DNA of 64,000 bases from Zeaxanthinibacter sp. PT1. GTDB taxonomy: Bacteria; Bacteroidota; Bacteroidia; Flavobacteriales; Flavobacteriaceae. Position numbers and translations under genes: made by a program. The stretch is from positions 1-64,000 of the forward strand of contig NZ_JAQPCN010000007.1 in the NCBI RefSeq assembly GCF_028464225.1, in the 5' to 3' direction. The notes under the pieces were generated by a model. It had not been told where the DNA came from, made no database searches, and saw nothing but the letters and a program-made list of their open reading frames with translations. Position 1 is the first letter of the stretch. Every line of letters starts with the position of its first letter. Positions 288-61,330 of the stretch are shown here, in pieces.

Positions 288-349
288 TTATCAGCGGTTG
301 CGCAGGAAAATTTTAATCAGGTTGATGCAAGTTTTTTGCAGGGAGTAGC

Positions 350-391
350 GATAACTTAAGACCGGGGAGGGGTTATGAACCCCGGAGTTCC
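350..391 (-). repeat. dispersed GC-rich inverted-repeat element
   Basis: On the minus strand the sequence reads GGGGTTCATAACCCCTCCCC followed by GGTCTTAAGTTATC. This is nearly the same as the head of each 274-bp unit near 57.7-58.2 kb (GGGGTTCTTAACCCCGCCCC, then GGTCATAAGTTAATTG). GGGGTT/AACCCC can form a hairpin. The element lies in gene-free DNA. The rest of 1-680 outside the listed repeats and the terminator shows nothing recognisable. Confidence 0.65.
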
Positions 392-9587: not shown

Positions 9588-9679
9588 AGTTCTACATATC
9601 CGGGAATGCAGGACTTAGGAGCCAGAATTAAAACCAGGATATGCTGGTTTCCTGCAGTGGAACGGGATATCTTCTAAAA

Positions 9680-9698
9680 GGGGCGGGGCGGAGCCCCC
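9680..9698. repeat. 19-bp GC-rich repeat, copy 1
   Basis: GGGGCGGGGCGGAGCCCCC occurs here and again, identically, at 9891-9909. GGGGC/GCCCC ends allow a hairpin. Its reverse complement ends in CCCCGCCCC, like the dispersed element at 350-391 and the heads of the 274-bp units. Just before it, CCTGCAGTGG and GGGATATCTT resemble words in the 274-bp unit. The rest of the gene-free stretch 9588-10054 shows no gene and no clear terminator. Confidence 0.6.
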
Positions 9699-9890
9699 GG
9701 CGAATGAAAAATCTATCTAAGTATAAGAGTAACAGAGCTGGGTTTCGGTAACGCGCTCACTTCGAAAAGATCTTTTATTCCTCTTCAGGAGAAGCAGCAC
9801 CCCATATCCTCGGCACCTCAAAACCGGTATCCTGGAACACACAAATTTCCACTGCTGGATTTATACAGTGAAAACTATTATCTTTTTCCT

Positions 9891-9909
9891 GGGGCGGGGC
9901 GGAGCCCCC
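9891..9909. repeat. 19-bp GC-rich repeat, copy 2
   Basis: Identical second copy of the sequence at 9680-9698, 211 bp downstream, in the same gene-free region between the convergent adaptor and FUSC genes. An exact 19-mer in DNA of about 44% GC is very unlikely by chance. Confidence 0.6.
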
Positions 9910-10054
9910 ACCGACCTTCAACAAAACTTATCCGAATTCCTACTTAAGCTTTGTGGTAGGTATATTAGAATTCCTTTCTGCTTAGCCTCAATTTAAATCT
10001 CATATGGGAACAACTGATTTCTAAGCAAACTCGGTCCGAAGAGGATTAATTGAA

Positions 10055-56335: not shown

Positions 56336-57187
56336 ATGATTGTAATCGTAGATAGCGGGGCAACTAAGGCAGATTGGATTGCTCTTGATGATAAAGGGGA
56401 ACAGGTCTTTATGACGCAGACCCTGGGACTGAGTCCCGAAGTTCTTACACCTGAGGTGATTGTTGAACGCCTGGCCAATAATTTTGAGCTGTCAAAAAAC
56501 AGCAGGAAGGTTCGTCGTCTGCATTTCTACGGCGCCGGATGCGGAACCTTACGCATGAGGAAGTTCCTGAAGAAAATCTTCAAAGAATTTTTCCCCAATG
56601 CACAGGTCGAGGTCAAAGAAGATACCTATGCTGCCATCTATTCCACTACCAAGGTAGGGCACCAGGGGATTGTTTGTATTCTTGGAACAGGATCTAACTG
56701 TAGTTATTATGACGGGCATCAGCTATTCCAAAAGGTAATGTCCCTGGGCTATATCCCTATGGATGATGGAAGCGGGAATTTTTTCGGGCGAAAGTTGATC
56801 CGGGATTATTACTTTCATAAAATGCCACAGGACCTCGCGCTTAAATTCTCAAAAGAATACAACCTGGAGGCTGATGTCATCAAAGAGAACTTATACAAGA
56901 AGCCAAACCCGAATACCTACCTCGCAACCTTTGCCAGGTTCCTGGTAGAGAATAAAGAACATGCCTACAGTAAAGGAGTAATTGATAAAGGGCTACAGCA
57001 ATTTGTCAATAACTACATCATGCAATTTGAATTGGCGACAAAAGTGCCAATTCATTTTGTGGGTAGTATTGCCTGGTTCTTAAGAGATGAGCTCAAAGTG
57101 GTTATCGAAAGAAACGACCTGGTTCTGGGGGTGATCCGTCAAAGGCCAATCGAGGGACTTATGGAATTTCACAAACAGACTATTTAA
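56336..57187 (+). CDS. BadF/BadG/BcrA/BcrD-type kinase, N-acetylglucosamine kinase-like
   Basis: 283 aa of the actin-like ATPase fold. MIVIVDSGATKADWIALD (phosphate-1), LHFYGAGCGT, VCILGTGSNCSYYDG (phosphate-2), GYIPMDDGSGNFFGRKLIRD and HFVGSIAWFLRDEL (adenosine site) match the BadF/N-acetylglucosamine kinase group. It probably phosphorylates an amino sugar from wall recycling or the diet. It follows gapA after a terminator-like hairpin and overlaps the convergent ridA stop by 8 bp. Confidence 0.88.
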   Translation: MIVIVDSGATKADWIALDDKGEQVFMTQTLGLSPEVLTPEVIVERLANNFELSKNSRKVRRLHFYGAGCGTLRMRKFLKKIFKEFFPNAQVEVKEDTYAAIYSTTKVGHQGIVCILGTGSNCSYYDGHQLFQKVMSLGYIPMDDGSGNFFGRKLIRDYYFHKMPQDLALKFSKEYNLEADVIKENLYKKPNPNTYLATFARFLVENKEHAYSKGVIDKGLQQFVNNYIMQFELATKVPIHFVGSIAWFLRDELKVVIERNDLVLGVIRQRPIEGLMEFHKQTI

Positions 57188-57563
57188 CAGCGATTACCGA
57201 AATTTCTACGTTGACGAACTTAGGAAGCCGGGAAACCTCGACAGTCTCTCTTGCCGGAGCCGAGGCTGGATCAAAATAAGCGCCATAGGCGGTGTTGATC
57301 TCGGCAAACTGGTGCATATCCTTAATAAAAATTGTGCTTTTAACCACATTTTCAAAAGTCATCCCGGCTTCGGTCAGGATGGCTTTTAAATTTTCCATAA
57401 CCTGGGTGGTTTCTTGTTGGATACTTCCCTGGACCAGGTTCATGGTAGCTGGATCCAAGGCGATCTGTCCCGAAACAAAAAGAGTGTCATTGGAGAGAAT
57501 CGCCTGGTTGTAAGGCCCGATGGGCGCCGGAGCATTGGTAGTGTGAATGATCTTTTTATTCAT
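57180..57563 (-). CDS. ridA: RidA-family enamine/imine deaminase
   Basis: 127 aa from the ATG at 57563; an in-frame extension to 57629 adds 22 poorly conserved residues and is not used. The YjgF/RidA fold is plain: TTNAPAPIGPYNQAILSND, VSGQIALDPATMNLVQGSIQ, QVMENLKAILTEAGMTFENV, and APARETVEVSRLPK (Arg that binds the substrate carboxylate). It destroys reactive enamines made by PLP enzymes. It reads away from the tandem repeat array upstream. Confidence 0.93.
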   Translation of the reverse strand: MNKKIIHTTNAPAPIGPYNQAILSNDTLFVSGQIALDPATMNLVQGSIQQETTQVMENLKAILTEAGMTFENVVKSTIFIKDMHQFAEINTAYGAYFDPASAPARETVEVSRLPKFVNVEISVIAVK

Positions 57564-57645
57564 TGCGTTAGCGTTAGGGGATAAATGTAGTGACAACGAC
57601 TCAAAGAGACAAGATGAGAAATTGAACATTTTTTGGGGAGGGACA

Positions 57646-57673
57646 TACTGTCAACTGTCAACTGCAAACTGTC
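57646..57673 (+). repeat. heptamer tandem array (AACTGTC)
   Basis: Four consecutive 7-mers: TACTGTC, AACTGTC, AACTGCA, AACTGTC. It lies immediately before the 274-bp units. The period and the AACT core resemble the CCAAACT arrays inside the units and the decayed array at 143-196. Confidence 0.7.
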
Positions 57674-57678
57674 TCCTT

Positions 57679-58472
57679 GGGGTTCTTAACCCCGCCCCGG
57701 TCATAAGTTAATTGTTTTCAATGCAGAAAGCCTGCAGTGGGATATCTTTAGTTACAGGGTTATAGGGTTACAAGGGGACAAAGTTACAAAGGTACATAGG
57801 TTCATAGGGACATAGGGACAGAGGTAAAGAATGACTGAGGGTAGAAAGTATCACAACTGGTCTACCCATGAGTAGCAACTACTAATTGATTAGCAGTATA
57901 CACCAAACTCCAAACTCCAAACTCCAAACTCCAATCACCATACTGCAACCCCGGGGTTCTTAACCCCGCCCCGGTCATAAGTTAATTGTTTTAAATGCAG
58001 AAAGCATGCAGTGGGATATTTTTAGTTACAGGGTTACAGGGTTACAGGGGGACAAAGTTACAGAGGTACATAGGTACATAGGGAAATAGGGACAGAGGTA
58101 AAGAATGACTGAGGGTAGAAAGTATCACAACTGGTCTACCCATGAGTAGCAACTACTAATTGATTAGCAGTATACACCAAACTCCAAACTCCAAACTCCA
58201 AACTCCAATCACCATACTGCAACCCCGGGGTTCTTAACCCCGCCCCGGTCATAAGTTAATTGTTTTCAATGCAGAAAGCCTGCAGTGGGATATTTTTAGT
58301 TACAGGGTTACAAGGGGACAAAGTTACAAAGGTACAAAGGTACATAGGGACATAGGGACAGAGTGACTGAGGGTGGAAAGTATCATAACTGGTCTACCCA
58401 TGAGTATCAACTACTAATTGATTAGCAGTAAACCCCAAACTCCAAACTCCAATCATCATACTGCAACCCAGG
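57679..58472. repeat. tandem array of a 274-bp unit (three copies)
   Basis: Copies start at 57679, 57953 and 58227 with a period of exactly 274 bp; the third ends near 58472 after about 246 bp. Identity is about 90-95% by eye. Each copy has, in order: the GC-rich inverted repeat GGGGTTCTTAACCCCGCCCC with GGTCATAAGTTAATTG, a TGCAG/CTGCA hairpin (altered in copy 2), an irregular 8-10 bp array of GTTACAGG/ACATAGGG words, the phrase CTGGTCTACCCATGAGTA, and CCAAACT heptamers (4, 4 and 2 copies at 57903, 58177 and 58435). There is no coding frame. It fills the 933-bp gap between ridA and lptD. Confidence 0.9.
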
Positions 58473-58496
58473 GTTGTGGTTTAAAGCAGTTTAAGT

Positions 58497-61199
58497 TTAT
58501 CTTCTTGGCGGCTGACTGCGATTCTCCCATTTCAGGTCGCTCAGGAGAGAGCTCTTAATTCCAATAAAGAAATACCAGCGTTCGTATTGCCCGAAGGGAG
58601 TCCAGTCAAAATTCAGCCGGAAACTCTTAAGGTCCCGTTCAAAACGTAACTGGGTTACCGAAAACCCCTTTCTCTTTATATCATAACCAGACGATACGCC
58701 AACAGACCATCTTGGCGCCGGAGTTATGTTCCCCGAGAACATGATCGAATGGTTGGTGAATTCGTTCTGCCGGTTGCTATTGCTGTAGGTTACGGCGTAC
58801 TGAAGCCTGAGATCCCAGGGAATTTTGGTGCCGTATACCGGGTTCTCAATATCGTCCTCATCCCGGTCCTTAAAAGCACTCTCGTTAAAATCGTTGGCCT
58901 TACCAAAAAGATCGTCCGTTCTTCCCCCACTGGCAGCAACATAATTTTCCCCGTCATAAGGGTCTTCACTTACCGGTTGATCATCGCGCTTAAAATCGGC
59001 GCTGCTGATGGAATACCCGATGTTGGCCCTTGCCGAAGTAAGCCTCAATAATCCGCCGCCATTATTTACGTTAAATGTGTTGATCCTTCGCCCGTTATTA
59101 TCAATCGCGTATGGGTCCAGGTTGGCCCCGAAGTTTACATTCATCTTGTTCTTAAACAAGGTGGTCCCCCCTGTAAGGCTTATAGGACTTAACTTAAGAG
59201 AATCAGCTTCCAGGTTGTAGCTAGTAGAAAGGTTGAAACTATTGAGTAACATCACCTTTTTAGGTTCGGTTACAGTACTGTCCTTATCTCTTACTTTGGC
59301 TTCTAGCGAGTTGGCCAACGAAAAGCTGAGTGAATTGGATTTTCCTAATCTGGGTGCACCGTATAATGTGTTTTGAAACCGGCTGTACTGCACGGGTAGA
59401 CCGGTGGCATCATTGATGTATTCATCGTAGAACTGATCAAAGGAAGGGGCGTATCCATAGCTGACGCTGGGTCTGACCACGTGTCTTATAGCCTGTAACT
59501 TCTTATCCTCTCCAAAATTGAAGGTACCGTATAGTGTAGTACCCATACTGGCGCTTAAATTGTATTGGTTGTACCTGTCAAAACCATTAATCGTATCGGT
59601 GACCACGGTGCCTGTCCCGCTGTCAAACGATTGTTCAAAGGTTTGCAGGGTCCAGATGTCTTCATAAGAACCTCCCAGGGTAACGCTTAGATGTTTAGCC
59701 ACCTTAAAATTGGTCGCTATAGGAATTCGATGCCGGGCCCCAATTTTTGCGTTATCAAACATCCGGGCACTGAGGAAATCCTCATCCGTTGTGCGGATAC
59801 TATTCCTGGCATTGAGATCATATTGAAAGTTGATGTTTTCCAGGGCTCCCTTCTTTATATTTCCTCGTTTCGCCAAAGGGAAGATACGCTCCATACTGGC
59901 CTGCAGGGTGGGGAGTGTAAGATCAACTACATTGGTGTTGGTGTTCTGGTTATGAGTGGCTGTTAGACTCATGTTTACCGACGGATATTCCGGGAAAGTC
60001 TTTGAATACGAAATTGAGGACGATAGGTTATTTACCTGGGTATTAGGTAAATTCTGTTGCAGGAGCGAGTTCCGATAATATTGACTGCTTCCCAGGTTAA
60101 CCGATGCCGAAAGCCTGGAATTAGGATTGGCCTTCGGGTCTTGTGAATGGCTGATCTGGATGTTATATATGGTACCACGACTGTAATCGTCAAATCCTCG
60201 CTGACTGGTGACTTGGTTCTCATAGCGGAAATTGATATTCCCTCTATAGGCATATCGTTTGGCGTAGACAGACTGTCCCCTTAAACCATAGCTTCCATTG
60301 GTGTATAGGTCTCCTGTGAGCGTCAGATCCACATAGTCATTAATGGGAAGGTAGTAGCCCCCATTCTGCAGAAAGTAGCCCCTGTTGGGATCATTTCCGA
60401 AAGTTGGCATCATCACCCCGGCCGTTCTTCCTACTGTCAAAGGGAAGTATGCAAAGGGCAGGGCAATAGGGGTGGGGACATCAACGATATATAAATTACT
60501 GAACCCGGCAATGACTTTCTTTTTTGGAACAAATTTAGCCTTCCTGATCCTGATGTAATAATCGGGATCTATGGTGTCTTTGGAGGTGGTTAGTTTACCC
60601 TCACTCAGGAAATAGACCGAATCATTTTCTTTTTTGGTGATCTGTGCATAAACCTTCATGGCGTCGCTGCCTAAGGCACCTAGACCGGCTTGTTGCTCTG
60701 AACGCGAATTAAAGATCAGGGCCTTCTCTGTATCAAAGTTAAACCGGATTGAATCCGGGATTACCACGTTCTCACCTTGCTTAAAGTAAGGAAGCTGGGT
60801 ATAATTACCCAGTGAATCCTTGATTCTACCGGCATAAACTTCGTTCTTGGCGTAATCCATGACGATAATGCCTGCCTTTAATTCGGTATCCTGGTAATAT
60901 ATCTCGGCTTCGTTATATAGATAGATCTTCTGTTCTTTCTGACTTAGCTTCACATAATCTTTGGCCTTATATTTGATCTTACCCAGTAGGGCATTGGGAT
61001 CAGGCGGTAAGGTGTCCGATTGAACAGAATCAACAGGGATACTGTCCTTTACGATGTTTGCAGGAAGCACAGGGGCACTAATCGAATCCCGCTCAGCTTT
61101 AATAGGAAGAGACTTAATTCTGTCTTCCTGTGACCATAAGGAGGAGGTGCTAACTAAAATCAGCCATAGGAGCAGTAGAAAATGTTTATTTGATTGCAA
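58497..61199 (-). CDS. lptD: LptD-type LPS-assembly outer-membrane protein
   Basis: 900 aa if it starts at the TTG at 61199 (MQSNKHFLLLLWLILVSTSS, cleavage near LWSQ); a longer in-frame version begins at 61289. The N-terminal OstA-like part (about 70-240; YKAKDYVKLSQKEQKIYLYN, GIIVMDYAKNEVYA) is followed by a large beta-barrel with FPLTVGRTAGVMMPTFGNDP, and ends in an aromatic strand. It delivers LPS to the outer leaflet. No ATG lies near the expected start. It is divergent from the amidase gene. Confidence 0.9.
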   Translation of the reverse strand: MQSNKHFLLLLWLILVSTSSLWSQEDRIKSLPIKAERDSISAPVLPANIVKDSIPVDSVQSDTLPPDPNALLGKIKYKAKDYVKLSQKEQKIYLYNEAEIYYQDTELKAGIIVMDYAKNEVYAGRIKDSLGNYTQLPYFKQGENVVIPDSIRFNFDTEKALIFNSRSEQQAGLGALGSDAMKVYAQITKKENDSVYFLSEGKLTTSKDTIDPDYYIRIRKAKFVPKKKVIAGFSNLYIVDVPTPIALPFAYFPLTVGRTAGVMMPTFGNDPNRGYFLQNGGYYLPINDYVDLTLTGDLYTNGSYGLRGQSVYAKRYAYRGNINFRYENQVTSQRGFDDYSRGTIYNIQISHSQDPKANPNSRLSASVNLGSSQYYRNSLLQQNLPNTQVNNLSSSISYSKTFPEYPSVNMSLTATHNQNTNTNVVDLTLPTLQASMERIFPLAKRGNIKKGALENINFQYDLNARNSIRTTDEDFLSARMFDNAKIGARHRIPIATNFKVAKHLSVTLGGSYEDIWTLQTFEQSFDSGTGTVVTDTINGFDRYNQYNLSASMGTTLYGTFNFGEDKKLQAIRHVVRPSVSYGYAPSFDQFYDEYINDATGLPVQYSRFQNTLYGAPRLGKSNSLSFSLANSLEAKVRDKDSTVTEPKKVMLLNSFNLSTSYNLEADSLKLSPISLTGGTTLFKNKMNVNFGANLDPYAIDNNGRRINTFNVNNGGGLLRLTSARANIGYSISSADFKRDDQPVSEDPYDGENYVAASGGRTDDLFGKANDFNESAFKDRDEDDIENPVYGTKIPWDLRLQYAVTYSNSNRQNEFTNHSIMFSGNITPAPRWSVGVSSGYDIKRKGFSVTQLRFERDLKSFRLNFDWTPFGQYERWYFFIGIKSSLLSDLKWENRSQPPRR

Positions 61200-61330
61200 T
61201 GCTTTAAATCCTATTTTTGTACTGATTCGGCTTGATTCTCGGGGCTCAAACTTACATATATTTTTTATTCTGCCGGGCGCAGACAACATAATTTTAACCT
61301 GGGGATAAGGCCAGAAATAACCAAATTACT

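Follow-up and report, generated by a model that had tools for sequence, protein, structure and literature searches.

The gap between ridA and lptD in Zeaxanthinibacter sp. PT1 holds tandemly repeated DNA that an earlier note, made from the sequence alone, could assign to no described element and read as a possible unnamed mobile repeat, recombination hotspot or structural chromosome element. What is this DNA, and what multiplied it here? We addressed this question in the window, the 64,000-nucleotide stretch that contains the array (contig NZ_JAQPCN010000007.1, positions 1 to 64,000), in the rest of the genome and in related genomes.

The array between ridA and lptD

Tandem Repeats Finder confirms a tandem array at 57679-58452 of the window (period 274, 2.9 copies, 93% matches), with a score of 1334 against 73 for the next best of its 14 rows. 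The earlier note had counted three copies with an exact 274-bp period. The 67-nucleotide core described below starts at 57674, 57948 and 58222, in steps of 274 and 274, and the period is indeed exact for these starts. It does not hold for the length of the third unit, because that unit is shorter: with units cut for comparison at 57679, 57953 and 58227, units 1 and 2 share 97.1% identity across 274 bases, and unit 3 shows 32 gap columns and 95.5-96.3% identity against either. Unit lengths are about 246-274 bp, and the units differ at 8-11 positions as well as in length. Because they are just 95-97% identical, the array is no simple assembly duplication, a doubt that had been raised in the earlier note. 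The longest stop-free frame within it is 45 codons, in line with its description as non-coding.

The array also fills the 933-bp gap, as had been proposed, with ridA read from the ATG at 57563 (the called open reading frame begins further upstream) and the end of lptD at 58497. Features of the array, and cores elsewhere in the window, are as follows (R1 is the core model; z values are for folding against shuffles).

57564..58496, no strand: gap between ridA (57180-57563, minus) and lptD (58497-61289, minus), filled by the array
57647..57671, plus: (ACTGNNN) ladder, four ACTG words exactly 7 apart (pattern search)
57674..57740, plus: core 1 (R1 78.6 bits; two-hairpin fold, z -2.72)
57742..57844, plus: octamer ladder of unit 1 (lag-8 scan; Tandem Repeats Finder)
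57876..57959, plus: heptamer ladder (CCAAACT) before core 2 (lag-7 scan; Tandem Repeats Finder 57903-57934)
57948..58014, plus: core 2 (R1 79.0 bits; fold z -1.83)
58015..58117, plus: octamer ladder of unit 2 (lag-8 scan)
58150..58233, plus: heptamer ladder (CCAAACT) before core 3 (lag-7 scan; Tandem Repeats Finder 58177-58208)
58222..58288, plus: core 3, the top match genome-wide (R1 80.6 bits; fold z -3.54)
58289..58387, plus: octamer ladder of unit 3 (lag-8 scan)
322..388, minus: core elsewhere in the window (R1 66.3 bits), with a heptamer ladder at 138-195 (lag-7 scan)
9638..9704, minus: core (R1 44.7 bits), ladder-free in the lag scan; Z. enoshimensis has cores at the same place
9849..9913, minus: core adjoining the previous one (R1 47.3 bits), likewise ladder-free

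Core 1 comprises a hairpin (GGGGTT-CTT-AACCCC), N-CCCC, AAGTTAA, a spacer and a second hairpin around TGCA...TGCA. The GC-rich inverted repeat and the small hairpin of the first description are the two hairpins of this single 67-nucleotide core. The '8-10 bp words' reported beside them have a period of 8, and the heptamer repeats have a period of 7 by both Tandem Repeats Finder and the lag-7 scan. The heptamer words of the window include ACTGTCA, ACTGCAA and CCAAACT. The ladder at 57647-57671 ends 2 bases before core 1 and is the sole (ACTGNNN)4 in the window (1 match, none in 100 shuffles).

LptD of Zeaxanthinibacter enoshimensis DSM 18435 (locus L127) shares 95% identity with the window LptD, which places the host in Zeaxanthinibacter or very close to it. 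The gap of 933 bp here compares with 805 bp in Z. enoshimensis and 26-98 bp at 26 loci from other genera, the latter distances being taken between the lptD and ridA matches (of 80 fetched loci 28 were used, with ridA found in 27). The Z. enoshimensis gap, which is orthologous to the site of the window array, contains heptamer and octamer ladders and GC-rich palindromes, and has no core match (53 of the 80 fetched loci were searched for this result). A further GC-rich palindrome (GCCCGCCCG...CGGGCGGGC) lies within Zeaxanthinibacter ladders in this gap, in L011 and in L255:5340-6640, and in Poritiphilus another palindrome (CCTCCGAAGCTTTAGCGAAGGAGG and variants) adjoins the ACTG words of the ladders (L192, L200, L204 and others).

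A dispersed two-hairpin core and its ladders

Used as a DNA query, the array gives 79 matches in the genome including itself, the others being short and 71-96% identical. Alignment of 81 instances (A1; 87 regular-expression candidates less three poor ones, two duplicates and L028:3808-3874, dropped before alignment) yields a 67-nucleotide core consensus that runs GGGG, loop, CCCC, one base, CCCC, G, about 5 bases, AAGTTAA, about 7 bases and CACTGCA...TGCAGT. Model R1 finds at least 143 core matches at E ≤0.01 in the window's genome, a few of them partial; all R1 genome counts are lower bounds, with at most 150, 86 or 13 candidates scored per genome. Because the same core is matched at so many places, the array is not a chance occurrence. 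It represents one locus of a family of composite elements that is scattered between genes.

The 143 cores group into 52 clusters, 20 with a single core and 32 with several, the largest holding 15. Clusters are intergenic except for 8 of 56 that overlap called open reading frames of about 100-130 codons, which we take to be spurious. Where both neighbouring genes were called (48 clusters), these are convergent in 14, tandem in 26 and divergent in 8; core orientation shows no clear bias relative to genes in this genome and, by a crude measure, a correlation of 0.08 with GC skew over 41 loci. Cores share one orientation in 24 of the 32 multi-core clusters. Of the 8 mixed clusters, 7 contain a pair whose starts lie 75-92 bp apart with the hairpin-2 ends facing, and we saw four isolated inverted core pairs. 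Core starts inside arrays are spaced 68-288 bp apart, four larger gaps excepted, and the inter-core DNA is related in the arrays that we read.

Arrays also occur at contig ends. Those at the ends of contigs C2, C6 and C9 (L179, L182, L183) are alike in sequence by eye, and the one on C9 (C9:5556-5620) follows what we take to be a 5S rRNA gene. Contig C5 carries related arrays of opposite orientation at its two ends (L029:1-1000 and the end of L032), and may therefore be bounded by inverted repeats.

Covariation was assessed on an unguided MAFFT alignment of the 81 cores against a two-helix structure written by hand. In hairpin 1, pair 12-20 changes from GC to AU in 14 rows and pair 14-18 from UA to CG in 13. 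Double-sided changes occupy 52 cells against 19.9 in shuffles (0 of 500 reach the observed number). There is no excess in the number of pairs showing double changes (7 against 6.0) or in that of pair types (20 against 19.3), and a one-column shift of the structure leaves 42 double changes. The trend is the same in another alignment, fitted to the model from 68 matches in other genomes (38 double changes against 20.5, and 28 after a one-column shift). RNAalifold without guidance returns just three pairs. Folded as single-stranded DNA, the full window cores form two hairpins (z values above), and two other cores fold with z -2.70 and -3.38. No T tract follows hairpin 1 in the consensus. The core consensus is thus a motif of about 67 nucleotides with two hairpins, the first of which shows compensatory changes.

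The three other Zeaxanthinibacter genomes searched all carry the core, with at least 23, 86 and 82 matches (at most 86 candidates scored). R1 also finds at least 92 matches in Poritiphilus flavus, 1 to 13 in each of five Robiginitalea genomes and 2 in Muriicola jejuensis. Among 397 Flavobacteriaceae genomes, at least 15, belonging to 9 of 237 genera and including the window's own genome and two congeners, match the core at E 0.001 (13 candidates scored per genome); 56 further genomes of the family and order added two with core matches, all partial. Partial cores comprising hairpin 2, mostly with AAGTTAA-like bases, were seen in other Flavobacteriaceae genera, the thresholds applied giving one or two per genome (L040, L041, L046, L241, L242).

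We scanned up to 140 bases on each side of the cores for periodicity. The strongest lag in the window's genome is 7 for 5' flanks (z 7.2) and 8 for 3' flanks (z 12.6), and the 5' flanks give an additional lag-8 signal (z 6.5). The same best lags are found in Z. enoshimensis (z 9.2 and 11.4). In Poritiphilus, lag 7 reaches z 25.5 in the 5' flanks, and in the 3' flanks it outscores lag 8 (z 17.5 against 12.8). Taken flank by flank, the threshold for lag 7 is passed on the 5' side by 21 of 122 flanks in the window's genome, 11 of 35 in Z. enoshimensis and 22 of 30 in Poritiphilus. For lag 8 among 3' flanks the numbers are, in the same order, 35 of 107, 7 of 29 and 13 of 30; 19 of the 122 own 5' flanks pass for lag 8. 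The off-period lags 5, 9, 10 and 11 account for 3 flanks in all, and lag 6 passes in Poritiphilus alone (2 and 12 of 30). Many cores, not all, have a period-7 ladder 5' and a period-8 ladder 3'. Across the window and 80 kb of Z. enoshimensis, lag-7 and lag-8 ladders lie solely near cores or in the lptD-ridA gap.

The 5' ladder keeps register with the core in two species. The Z. enoshimensis and Poritiphilus regions, 20 for each species, were chosen by hand from the higher-scoring core matches. Poritiphilus has 108 ACTG words upstream of the core against 6.1 by shuffling, of which 83 share a phase (-4, -11, -18...) and 24 fall in the next. The counts are 57 against 12.7 in Z. enoshimensis (31 in the top phase, 15 in the next) and 85 against 24.1 in the window's genome (32 and 20). 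When each cluster contributes one core, phase coherence reaches 0.91 in Poritiphilus (null 95% 0.42) and 0.85 in Z. enoshimensis (null 95% 0.61); the 0.44 of the window's genome lies below its null 95% of 0.53 and is not significant. An open scan of all tetramers ranks ACTG first in Z. enoshimensis (26.0, null 95% 13.4) and Poritiphilus (86.3, null 95% 16.1), and CCTC rather than ACTG in the window's genome (10.8, null 95% 8.6); scans at a wrong period also exceed their null 95% in 3 of the 6 sets, though they score just 6.2-8.2. The open scan finds octamers out of register in the window's genome and Z. enoshimensis and weakly in register in Poritiphilus (10.6, null 8.5). Z. enoshimensis and Poritiphilus thus share a 5' (ACTGNNN)n ladder whose phase is set relative to the core.

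The triplets between the fixed tetramers vary. Among 186 Poritiphilus words, picked beforehand by their ACTG, triplet likeness is 0.44 between neighbours, 0.41 elsewhere in the same ladder and 0.39 between ladders, and is similar in the other two sets (32 and 54 words). So small a difference is not what whole heptamers copied recently would give. The variable bases are not free, as TTC and ATT make up 78 of the 186 Poritiphilus triplets.

Exact (ACTGNNN)4 occurs in 81 of 295 Bacteroidia genomes, at up to 576 places in one. The backwards pattern, used as a control, is present in 38 of 295 (counted by hand), which shows that heptamers of other kinds exist as well; a control with 8-base spacing is present in 9 of 295, in 6 of these as plain identical repeats. 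None of 20 fetched Bacteroidia ladder loci (L273-L292) has a core match. These loci and the core-less ladders of the Z. enoshimensis gap indicate that ladders do not need a core.

Site sharing and possible local recombination

Sixteen of the 20 chosen Z. enoshimensis core regions correspond in site and orientation to a core locus of the window's genome; both flanks match in 7 and a single flank in 9. The other four comprise two that border the 24-kb block described below, L226, which matches none of the loci of the window's genome that were compared, and L225, whose core is absent at the orthologous point here (L168), with no readable target duplication. Where both flanks match, copy numbers differ (7 against 3, 4 against 1); arrays at the ends of contigs C2 and C6, which are cut by the contig end, are excluded from this comparison.

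At 16 shared loci the cores have a mean identity of 0.71, against 0.65 for random pairs of cores, and the flanks average 0.52-0.57, against a 5' background of 0.54; two 3' flanks reach 0.71 and 0.77. At the 9.6-kb locus of the window, likewise, the cores align with those of Z. enoshimensis and the flanks hardly do. Core identities above those of random pairs, next to flanks near background, suggest that the core consensus is kept and the rest turns over.

One large rearrangement involves arrays. The Z. enoshimensis stretch C1:261.6-284.7k matches C4:105.7-130.4k here, a block of 24 kb, and both sides of the Z. enoshimensis block match one contiguous stretch here (C1:418.7-434.6k) that carries an inverted core pair at the junction. 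In Z. enoshimensis each end of the block has two cores in direct orientation, with inter-core DNA that is alike by eye. Here one end of the block adjoins the 15-core array, and the other is without a core match. The position of the block and the arrays at its ends would fit recombination between arrays, although they do not prove it.

Given that 16 of 20 regions share site and orientation but differ in copy number, the family appears to be mainly resident. The suggestion that the repeat is mobile is thus not supported as an account of its main present activity: besides the shared sites, no Y1 transposase was found in four Zeaxanthinibacter genomes, nor a reverse transcriptase in the window's genome. 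The L225 core and the unmatched L226 speak the other way. That of a recombination hotspot gains some support from the copy-number differences at shared sites and the array ends of the 24-kb block. The same two observations suggest that arrays may shape flavobacterial chromosomes.

Possible roles and relation to known systems

We tentatively favour, with somewhat less than even confidence, a resident composite element that would serve as a register-dependent, multivalent protein-binding site and would be multiplied by local recombination. Its unit is the core of about 67 nucleotides, able to form two hairpins on one strand, often with a period-7 ladder upstream and a period-8 ladder downstream; in Z. 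enoshimensis and Poritiphilus the upstream (ACTGNNN)n ladder starts at a fixed distance from the core. A candidate protein would recognise the core, and further subunits would each bind one heptamer along the ladder, on DNA or on a transcript. Recombination between near-identical neighbours would multiply and delete units, which would account for copy numbers that differ between species at sites and in orientations that are mostly kept. A binding site is the mode of action that we infer to be most likely, with a decayed REP-like family ranked second. Our searches found no binding protein.

The second-ranked reading, possible but on the doubtful side, is a REP/BIME- or MITE-like family whose core was spread by a since-lost transposase, is kept by inertia and was multiplied locally, the ladders being neutral microsatellites. 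It would account for intergenic palindromes dispersed in 143 matches, for the close pairs with facing hairpin-2 ends in 7 of 8 mixed clusters, which resemble inverted REP pairs, and for the L225 core absent at the orthologous point here. It sits less well with cores that hold their consensus where flanks are saturated, and the ladder register in two species has no place in it. The Y1 transposase domain (Pfam PF01797) was not found in the window's genome or in any of the 4 Zeaxanthinibacter genomes (one 68% complete). Two of 11 genomes searched, Poritiphilus and Muriicola, have one such gene each, beside which, by eye, lie other repeats (the Poritiphilus locus includes a 13.6-bit partial core). 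The GTAG or CGTC tags of REP/RAYT systems (PMC3733652) are absent from the A1 consensus and from the edge consensus of three species sets. A RAYT/REP origin is thus not supported by the Y1 search or by the two Y1 loci. A reverse transcriptase as writer of the ladders is not a general driver either, as PF00078 is found in another Zeaxanthinibacter genome (G002) and Poritiphilus and was not found in the window's genome, genome G001 or Z. enoshimensis.

An RNA element, with the hairpins acting in transcripts as a 3' end stabiliser, terminator or regulator, seems improbable to us. Hairpin covariation and folding speak for it. So does the position of core-less ladders, which at 10 of the 20 loci sampled have a stop codon facing them at a distance of -6 to 20 nt, a count without a control. 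Against it, cores stand in both orientations to their neighbours (14 convergent, 26 tandem and 8 divergent of 48), hairpin 1 lacks a T tract and the window has no Rfam match at the gathering score; four matches below that score (2 kb searched at E up to 10, best E 0.023) we take as chance. A promoter, with the reverse complement TTAACTT as a -7 box, was weighed by eye and dropped. Assembly duplication or plain polymerase slippage without further meaning, which the tandem copies and fixed period would suit, is very improbable given the differences between units in 8-11 positions and in length and the presence of the family in other species and genera; recent slippage would not predict varied triplets between fixed ACTG. 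A plasmid or phage origin is not supported, as blastn at E 1e-5 gave no match in either collection; a plasmid match was among the outcomes that the earlier note had named as refuting.

Integron-like attC sites, with the arrays as runs of non-coding cassettes, receive hardly any weight from us. Model TIGR02249 matches 7 of 7 genomes, always below its cut-off, as it does 14 of 14 controls. In four genomes an integrase (best segment 126.9 bits, cut-off 265) is followed by same-strand small open reading frames:

L266:1461-2639, minus: integron-like locus of Z. enoshimensis; a core lies 29 bp upstream of the integrase frame
L267:6086-7264, plus: integron-like locus of G002; a core lies 29 bp upstream of the integrase frame
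L268:7345-8514, minus: integron-like locus of Robiginitalea aestuariiviva
L269:4267-5211, minus: integron-like locus of Muriicola jejuensis

Three of these integrases are extended at the N terminus by about 85 residues. The two upstream cores and the same-orientation arrays would favour attC sites. The repeats between the small frames, however, have AACAACGG...CCGTT ends unlike the core, presumably integron R boxes, and the core model has no match in those stretches. The window's genome gives weaker integrase matches, which in our reading resemble Xer proteins. The attC reading thus appears already largely refuted.

Core plus ladder gives a defined pull-down substrate, which makes the question of a reader (or writer) of heptamers testable. 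Heptamer repeats in bacterial intergenic DNA were reported earlier without a settled explanation (PMC4679880); here two genera have a ladder of four fixed and three varied bases, in two species in register with a conserved hairpin core. Unlikely, in our judgement, is the wider claim of a new class of chromosomal element, in which a folded core sets the register for a seven-base ladder read by a filament- or array-forming protein, with (ACTGNNN)n across Bacteroidia and TAACTGA in other phyla as further cases.

The arrangement of parts is not found described elsewhere within the open-licence literature searched, which included PMC6749651 and PMC4692102, and the family, without an Rfam match at the gathering score in the window, is an unnamed repeat as the earlier note had considered. 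One close likeness in form is to REP/BIME elements with RAYT (TnpA-REP): both are short intergenic palindromes of high copy number in tandem and inverted pairs. Here inverse pairs are a minority, given mixed orientation in 8 of 32 multi-core clusters, neither a Y1 transposase in 4 of 4 Zeaxanthinibacter genomes nor a GTAG/CGTC tag was found, and period-7 and period-8 ladders are added. Subclass 2.6 TnpA-REP genes of Bacteroidetes have atypical secondary structures nearby (PMC6006769); the taxon and the atypical hairpins repeated in the genome are alike, and the window's genome has no such gene by PF01797. Pneumococcal BOX and RUP (PMC3049150) are also small interspersed intergenic repeats. TAACTGA heptamer direct repeats are described in PMC4679880 from Beggiatoaceae, some cyanobacteria and five Bacteroidetes, and lie mostly just upstream of start codons in the main genome treated there. 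They consist of one exact heptamer, and the tandem repeat sequence TAACTGATAACTGA is absent from the window. Read in another frame, a TAACTGA tandem is ACTGATA, one case of ACTGNNN; unlike the TAACTGA repeats as given in that text, the ladders described here combine four fixed with three varied bases and, in Zeaxanthinibacter and Poritiphilus, often stand beside a two-hairpin core.
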